DNA of 43,730 nt from a virus: positions 1 to 43,730 of the IMG/VR virus record IMGVR_UViG_3300042515_003295; one strand, written 5' to 3'. The number at the start of each line of letters is the position of its first letter. Within the stretch, counting starts at the first letter, position 1. The notes beneath the pieces were generated by a model. It worked only from the letters and a program-made list of their open reading frames with translations, had not been told where the DNA came from and did not search any database. The position numbers were made by a program, and so were the translations under genes. This document shows, one piece after another, positions 8,579 through 10,714 of this stretch.

Positions 8579-8665
8579 TGCGCGCCGCGGCCGAAAAATC
8601 CACCGCGTTGCGTCAGGCCAATGGATTCACGCATCGTACTCTCGTGGTCACTGGCGGAGGGTGCG

Positions 8666-8923
8666 ATGGACGAGGCGCTCGTGGTCCCGCTGAAGCGGGC
8701 AGCACAGTTGTTGTCGGTGAGCCCCCGGACGCTGCGGCGTCTCGTGGGGGCCGGAGTCCTCTCGGCGGTGATGCTCGGCGGTCGGCAGATGATTCCGACG
8801 TCGGAATTGAAGCGCGTCACCCAGCCTCGGCAGACGCGCGAAGCGCCAGCCGGTCAGGCGCGCGGGACGAGGGGCCAGCAGGAGGTCGAACGCCTTCGCG
8901 CGCTGCGCCAGCGCAGGGGCTAG
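8666..8923 (+). CDS. xis: Excisionase-like MerR/HTH_17 protein
   Basis: 85 residues from ATG 8666, chosen over ATG 8621 because GGAGG lies just upstream. VVPLKRAAQLLSVSPRTLRR followed by GVLSAVMLGGRQMIPTSELK is the winged helix-turn-helix of the excisionase/MerR-like family, with the wing residues before 'IPTSEL'. It ends inside the stop of the convergent integrase gene. It probably acts as recombination directionality factor for the integrase; a plain DNA-binding regulator is the alternative. The C terminus is basic. Confidence 0.7.
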   Translation: MDEALVVPLKRAAQLLSVSPRTLRRLVGAGVLSAVMLGGRQMIPTSELKRVTQPRQTREAPAGQARGTRGQQEVERLRALRQRRG

Positions 8924-9981
8924 CCGATGAGCTTCAGCGTGGCCCTGGGCTTCGGCACGTCCAGGGCGAGGGCGGTGTGACCGAGGTCCCGGTAGAAGGC
9001 CGCAGTCGTCCTCGGGCTGCGGTGGCCCAGGAAGTCAGCGATGGCGGCGAGCGGCACGCCGCGCTGGGCGAGCCACGTGGCCACCGAGTGCCGCATCACG
9101 CCCATGTTGAAGGCAGGGACGCCGGCCTGTCTGCAGGCGACGTGGAGCGAGTCCCGGAGCACCGTGCGGGCCGGGATGCTGCCGGCGTCGCGCAGTCGCT
9201 TGGCGGCCTCGAGGGCGGCCTCGTCGGTGAGGGCCACGACGTGGAGCTGCCCCGACTTGTGTTTCACCGCCAGGTTCGCCACGACGCCCTTGCCCTGTTG
9301 CTCGGGCGTGGGCGCGAAGAGTTCGCCCGCCGAGGCGAAGCGCGCCGCCTCGCTGAGGTGGATGCCGGTGGCGGCGAGGAGGCGCAGCACGTCGGCCACC
9401 TCTCCGCGAAGGATGCCCAGGGCCTTCTCGACGTGCTCGAAGGGGACGGCGCGCCGGCGCTGCAGCTTGGCTGGACGGGCCGTGGGCACCGGGAGGTCGA
9501 GGGTCGGGTCCTCCGAGTGGCGCACCAGCCCCTTCTCCTGACGGAGCCATCGGTAGAATCCCTTGATGGTGATGACGCGGTGGCGCTCGGCCGTCTTCCA
9601 CGTCCGCAGGGCGTCCTTCAGGTCGACGAGGCGCAGGGTTCGAAGGTCGCGCCCGGCGAGCTCGAGGAGCCACGCCTCGAGGTACGTCCCGCAGGCGGTG
9701 ACGTGCTCCGGGGTGTTCCGCTTCGCGGACAGCTGCCAGCGCTCGTGTTCGTCGATGAGCTCGGCCGTCAGCGGCACCTCGTCGGCGGCCTCGAAGCGTC
9801 GCCGCGGGTCGTACCTCGTGGGCGCCGACTCGAAGCGCTCCAGCTCTCGAAGCGCCGCGCGCTCGGTGCGACACTTCGTGGAGACGTGGAAGTGCCGTCC
9901 ACCCACCACCTTCTCGATGATGAAGACGGGGCCCCTCTTCCCCTGCCGAACGTAGCCACCCAGCCACCGCTGTCGGTCCAC
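8920..9981 (-). CDS. int: Tyrosine-type site-specific integrase
   Basis: 353 residues from GTG 9981, chosen because GGGAGG lies five bases upstream; TTG 10062 would add 27 residues but has no ribosome site and lies inside the att core. An N-terminal arm-binding/core domain (1-175) is followed by the catalytic domain: KHKSG (Lys242), MRHSVATWL (Arg297), LGH (His320) and FYRD (nucleophile Tyr330). The first catalytic arginine, normally in TGLRxSE, is replaced: the site reads TGIHLSEA (His208). The HxxR histidine is Gly294. The other residues are intact and its position beside attP and a xis-like gene argues that it works. It integrates the phage, probably at selC. Confidence 0.9.
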   Translation of the reverse strand: MDRQRWLGGYVRQGKRGPVFIIEKVVGGRHFHVSTKCRTERAALRELERFESAPTRYDPRRRFEAADEVPLTAELIDEHERWQLSAKRNTPEHVTACGTYLEAWLLELAGRDLRTLRLVDLKDALRTWKTAERHRVITIKGFYRWLRQEKGLVRHSEDPTLDLPVPTARPAKLQRRRAVPFEHVEKALGILRGEVADVLRLLAATGIHLSEAARFASAGELFAPTPEQQGKGVVANLAVKHKSGQLHVVALTDEAALEAAKRLRDAGSIPARTVLRDSLHVACRQAGVPAFNMGVMRHSVATWLAQRGVPLAAIADFLGHRSPRTTAAFYRDLGHTALALDVPKPRATLKLIG

Positions 9982-10056
9982 CAAAGCCTCCCGAAAAGGC
10001 CGTGAGCCTCGAAAGGAATCCAATGAACATCGCTTCTTGCGCTCCGCATTCCGGGC

Positions 10057-10119
10057 CTTCAAAACCAGTGGGACGGCGCGCGAGCGTCGTCCGGGTGGTT
10101 CGATTCCGCTGCTCTACCG
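10057..10119 (+). other. Predicted attP core: 3' half of tRNA-Sec (selC)
   Basis: Reads as the distal half of a bacterial selenocysteine tRNA: anticodon loop CTTCAAA (10057-10063, anticodon TCA), 3' anticodon stem ACCAG, a long variable arm with a perfect 9-bp stem closed by the tetraloop GCGA (10071-10092), T-arm GGTGG-TTCGATT-CCGCT (10094-10110), an 8-base acceptor strand GCTCTACC and discriminator G (10119). The 8+5 acceptor/T-arm layout, TCA anticodon and long arm are specific to tRNA-Sec. Upstream of the loop the 5' anticodon-stem sequence no longer pairs, as expected where the identity block ends. It sits directly upstream of int. Confidence 0.85.
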
Positions 10120-10222
10120 TCTGCAGGATGCGGACGGGTGAGGTCACGGGTGGCCAGCAAGGCTCCCGAAATCATCCCCAGGTCGCTCCCGAAATCCAAC
10201 TGAACGCGCGTGGGGGTGCCGC

Positions 10223-10714
10223 ATGAGCACCGCCACCGTCAGCCGGCAGGACGAGTGGAGCGAGCTCGGCGCCGTCCGTCGCATCGTCCCCTGCCCCGAC
10301 TGCGGCGGCTTTCGGCGAGACATGCCGGGCCCACACTCACCTCGGTGGAACTCGGCCCACGTGCTGGTGGACTGCGCCGGCCGCCCTGTAGGCGACGAAT
10401 GGCGCGTCCGGCGGGAGGTCGTCACCGCCCACCATCCTCCCGAGGTCCATCCTCGAGCCCCAGAAGCACCCGCACCGGAACTCCAGCGGGTGTCCGAGCG
10501 CATCGGCGCCGCCATCGTCGCCTTCGCCCGCGCTCACTTGGGCGAGACGTTCCACGCGGACGACCTCCGGCGTCACGTGCGCGCCGCGGTGGGCGAGGTG
10601 GCGCCTGACTCCGCGTCGCGCATCCTCCGGGACCTCCGCCAGCAGGGCGTCGTCGCCTACGAGCTCGTCTCGCGGGCGAAGAGCCTCTACCGCATCACCG
10701 CGGTGAGTCCTTGA
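10223..10714 (+). CDS. Zinc-ribbon plus winged-helix protein
   Basis: 163 residues from ATG 10223. The N-terminal third has CPDCGG and a further Cys near VDCAG, a possible zinc site. Residues 90-160 (IVAFARAHLGETFHADDL, SASRILRDLRQQGVVAYEL) fit a winged-helix domain. It lies between attP and the replication operon, a position often held by phage regulators, and its stop codon is embedded in the promoter-like element at 10711. In the prophage it would be the first gene downstream of the restored selC. Function is inferred. Confidence 0.5.
   Translation: MSTATVSRQDEWSELGAVRRIVPCPDCGGFRRDMPGPHSPRWNSAHVLVDCAGRPVGDEWRVRREVVTAHHPPEVHPRAPEAPAPELQRVSERIGAAIVAFARAHLGETFHADDLRRHVRAAVGEVAPDSASRILRDLRQQGVVAYELVSRAKSLYRITAVSP

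Follow-up and report, generated by a model that had tools for sequence, protein, structure and literature searches.

Results

The window, by which we mean the whole stretch of DNA analyzed here, corresponds to a virus record 43,730 bases long, and its terminase, portal, tape-measure, and baseplate genes identify it as a contractile-tailed phage. At positions 10057 to 10119, on the plus strand, lies a 63-base segment that reads as the 3' part of a selenocysteine-tRNA gene (selC), from the anticodon loop to the discriminator base, and that forms the putative core of an attachment site (attP). A preliminary description had held that this segment folds as the distal half of tRNA-Sec, and every part that it named can be read directly from the plus strand: the anticodon loop CTTCAAA (10057-10063, with the anticodon TCA at 10059-10061), the 3' strand of the anticodon stem, ACCAGT (10064-10069), a long variable arm (10071-10092), a T-arm (about 10095-10109), the eight-base acceptor strand GCTCTACC (10111-10118), and a discriminator G at 10119. 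In the variable arm, which also aligns to the Rfam tRNA-Sec family, 10071-10079 pairs with 10084-10092 through nine pairs, one of them G-U, beneath a GCGA cap at 10080-10083. Among the Rfam tRNA families, only tRNA-Sec matches the core, with a score (25.3 bits) that falls below threshold because the 5' half of the tRNA is absent from the phage; ARAGORN likewise reports no complete tRNA at the core.

On the strand opposite the core, and to its left, lies the integrase gene int (8920-9981, minus strand), which encodes a tyrosine recombinase of 353 amino acids recognized by PF00589, the phrog_1 integrase family, a XerC-like model, and its catalytic residues. The gene starts with GTG at 9981, 75 bp from the core, and a GGGAGG motif (the complement of 9987-9992) stands 5 bases before that codon; for this reason we rejected an alternative TTG start inside the core, at 10062. 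In related elements, in-frame stop codons separate the core from int. Convergent with int, and with a stop codon overlapping its own, is a gene on the plus strand (8621-8923) for an excisionase-like helix-turn-helix protein (TIGR01764 excise, above cut-off; PF12728), which from these matches is a candidate directionality factor. A gene to the right of the core (10223-10714, plus strand) encodes a protein of 163 amino acids with no assigned function, for which PHROGs, Pfam, and NCBIfam gave no match; the geometry of the site predicts that in a prophage it would follow selC as the first gene.

Both arms of the site carry repeats of the CTTCCCGAAA type, which read CTCCCGAAA on the plus strand at 9988-9996 in the left arm and at 10163-10171 and 10186-10194, 23 bp apart, in the right. 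These are the only three copies of the 9-mer in the whole window. Three occurrences of CTCCCGAAA were reached in none of 100 shuffles, a comparison that favors the motif because it was picked after the region had been viewed; by a looser count, 15 of 870 stretches of the same size contain some 9-mer in three copies. Because five selC prophages of other genomes likewise have tandem repeats, each its own, in their two arms, we take the CTCCCGAAA copies as candidate arm-type sites for Int. The left copy shares bases with the ribosome-binding site of int, an arrangement that would let Int repress itself. A scan built for another promoter type found no sigma-70-like promoter on either side of the core. 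The int promoter could lie within the 75 bp between core and gene. In the integrated form int would stand beside host DNA, and a promoter to the right of the core would therefore be lost, in which case int could be switched off, as the preliminary description proposed; in KplE1, the orientation of int relative to the tRNA gene matters for regulation (PMC2951348).

An exact scan with 62 bases of the core against genomes of 84,980 species returned two matches, both in Myxococcaceae MAGs, and at both loci the tRNA-Sec gene is complete (70.4 and 73.3 bits; called SeC by ARAGORN). The core is identical to the selC genes of both MAGs at 63 of 63 positions and covers exactly the last two-thirds of the host gene. 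Identity ends at 10057 on the left, which is tRNA position 34 in the anticodon loop, and at 10119 on the right, with 2 further bases matching in one MAG only. An exact match of 63 bases cannot be a product of chance. A third genome of the host group is 95% identical to the core and others are 78 to 89% identical over all or part of it, and the two host MAGs hold no extra copy, a second weak match in one of them being a short partial match. These results bear out what the preliminary description had read at the locus, the 3' part of selC beside a tyrosine integrase gene, and the search of bacterial genomes that it proposed as a check has turned up full tRNA-Sec genes with an identical 3' part.

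The further prediction of a selenocysteine-using host also stands. Both MAGs and the 95% identical genome carry a selA gene, and SelB leaves incomplete traces in both MAGs: in one it scores above cut-off but is an incomplete match located at a contig end, and in the other it is a fragment of 79 positions. That the host makes selenocysteine is thus well supported. Since 151 of the 195 genomes searched around the host group have a tRNA-Sec above the Rfam cut-off, the prediction is not very selective here. In the draft contigs of both host MAGs, selC appears unoccupied.

Integrases related to that of the window occur in 58 of these 195 genomes (E up to 1e-15) and mostly adjoin tRNA genes. In other Myxococcota we delimited seven elements at selC (G090, G139, G133, G065, G122, G158, and G129), with integrases 33 to 38% identical to the window's. 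The direct repeats that bound them are 63 to 66 bp long, exact in five and with one mismatch in G133 and G129, and in all seven they share their starting point with the core in the window: tRNA position 34, where the anticodon loop begins. The distances from selC to the far repeat are 43.6, 42.4, 40.5, 32.4, 13.0, 13.3, and 14.9 kb. The preliminary description had called for prophages at selC with int at one end, and five of the elements (G090, G139, G133, G065, and G122) have int where it was predicted, at the far end and reading back towards selC; in G158 and G129 int adjoins selC. Among the proteins tested, the seven share only int with the window. G090 encodes a tail-like protein and has replication genes of phage type. 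Replication genes are present in other selC elements as well; G122 and the small elements are possibly not phages.

In the integrase phylogeny, the window Int lies outside both groups of selC integrases. A single clade of all selC integrases is rejected (p about 1e-4), so the choice of site is not simply inherited; changes between selC and other targets number two on the tree. Several further loci of the family were recorded on the way. One genome (L105-L106, G068:C1:5180500-5206000) holds two tRNA-Sec genes 22 kb apart that are identical from tRNA position 9 on, one of them with a different acceptor 5' strand and integrase matches flanking it on both sides. At L108 (G156:C17:18000-32000), a family integrase lies 5' of selC and diverges from it, and the stretch analyzed showed no repeat of the tRNA. 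Three loci (L053, L142, and L146) repeat the layout of the window with a different tRNA, an apparent 3' half of tRNA-Glu lying on the opposite strand just upstream of a family integrase. Viral contigs gave no match in a protein search with the window Int alone and did give matches in a search with the family alignment. The closest integrase relative (L134, 51% identity) lies on a 43-kb viral contig, with no recognizable tRNA half near or upstream of its int gene.

The active site of the window Int is unusual. Its nucleophilic tyrosine (Y330), Arg-II (R297), Lys-beta (K242), and His-III (H320) are kept. An alignment to lambda Int, low in score but with the motifs lined up, places H208 on Arg212 and G294 on His308. 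With the Arg-I position set by this weak-scoring alignment, the site is His in 52 of 52 aligned integrases; the His-II site of the HxxR motif is Gly in 50 of the 52, and all 52 have an Arg six residues beyond the His. Membership in the tyrosine recombinases rests on the other motifs, on profile matches, and on the fold of a low-confidence predicted model (mean pLDDT 58.9), which matches lambda Int, XerH, and Cre and is too uncertain for the placement of side chains.

The phage has a sister, G196 (43,719 bases). When the window is closed into a circle, its collinearity with G196 extends across the window's own ends (about 8.4 versus 8.3 kb); both records are therefore probably close to complete, with their cuts at different places. 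In the same place and orientation before int, at about 2103-2153, G196 carries 50 bases of the 3' half of a tRNA-Arg(UCU) gene, and its integrase is 44% identical to that of the window. Thus the backbone that the two phages share goes with different tRNA halves and different integrases, and makes use of different tRNA genes. As evidence against selC, the preliminary description had named in advance a prophage of this type whose junctions lie elsewhere, and the tRNA-Arg core of G196 touches on that point; it is no refutation, because its integrase differs and its core is its own. The phage collection searched holds no similar DNA, and the viral contigs hold no exact copy of the core. Elsewhere in the window, 35905-36027 matches the gntR-DTE RNA well below threshold (27.8 bits against 63.6), likely by chance.

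Discussion

The 63-base segment almost certainly forms the attP core, which the phage integrase would recombine with host selC. The crossover would probably fall within the anticodon loop, the starting point of the shared sequence, and integration would join the 5' part of host selC to the 3' part borne by the phage. An intact tRNA-Sec gene would in this way be kept at one end of the prophage, the phage inserting without breaking the gene, and the displaced 3' part of the host gene would mark the other end, beside int. We infer that the window phage itself integrates at selC from the identity of its core to complete host genes, from the adjoining int gene, and from the like junctions that relatives of its integrase have made at selC. 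Counting against this reading are the lack of a matching viral contig or of a prophage (neither attL nor attR of the window phage was found in the genomes searched, where such absence is no evidence against integration), the unoccupied selC and incomplete SelB of both MAGs, and the position of the window Int outside the selC groups.

Phages carry tRNA genes and fragments, and with no prophage of the window phage seen, the core might be a remnant of imprecise excision or a decoy that is never used for integration. We regard this as very improbable, for the fragment adjoins int, spans the exact segment that serves as the repeat in seven related elements, and is flanked by candidate arm sites, and the sister phage has another tRNA half in its place. 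Less probable still is that the window comes from a prophage, in which case its tRNA half would be an attR rather than an attP. An attR too would be a 3' fragment beside int, but the circular collinearity with G196 identifies the DNA to the right of the core as phage, the core is internal in the window rather than at an end, and its flanks do not match those of host selC. Read as an attP core, the segment ties an uncultured temperate phage to a host family, the Myxococcaceae.

The integrase family is evidently active, because precise repeats have been left at selC; another enzyme could in principle move these elements. A review-level statement in PMC4499138 describes Arg-I as nearly invariant in tyrosine recombinases and Cre and Flp with Lys at that site as more or less nonfunctional. 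On balance, we favor the view that this is a Myxococcota-centered family of working tyrosine recombinases without Arg-I (always His) or His-II (nearly always Gly), in which the scissile phosphate is stabilized in a manner that we have not found described, and that the same family has repeatedly turned to selC with a core from the anticodon loop. The change from Arg-I to His, if confirmed in an active enzyme, would be a natural test of the role of that arginine.

The selC gene is already known as a phage attachment site, and the selC phages compared here use 19 to 27 bp at its 3' end. Like the window phage, Burkholderia phage PhiE067, a temperate myovirus, has its site at selC, but that site is 19 bp at the 3' end of the gene (PMC7266877) and the core in the window is 63 bp from the anticodon loop. 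The Pf-tRNA-Sec prophages of Pseudomonas aeruginosa share with the window phage a tyrosine-type integrase that uses tRNA-Sec, and among them, as in the window Int family, the type of integrase follows the tRNA used; unlike the window phage, they are filamentous, with a 27-bp core at the 3' end (PMC7549136). Myxococcus phage Mx8 (PMC6070905; NC_003085) is, like the window phage, temperate, myxobacterial, and site-specific in its integration. Unlike the window phage, it carries attP inside int, so that integration changes the 3' end of the gene (PMC6070905), and the RxxE and HxxR motifs are canonical in its Int, where the window Int has His and Gly; we had expected a link between the two integrases, but they show no significant similarity. 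A literature search that covered few subscription journals turned up no paper on selC prophages of myxobacteria. Cores that begin in the anticodon loop (subsite A) are a common class in tRNA genes, and the Islander subsite A islands resemble the window in taking their core from that loop and in restoring the 3' half of the gene; the text of the Islander paper gives no selC example among them (PMC4383910). In the Myxococcota, selC is a recurrent attachment site, with a core that starts in the anticodon loop and is longer than in the selC phages compared here.
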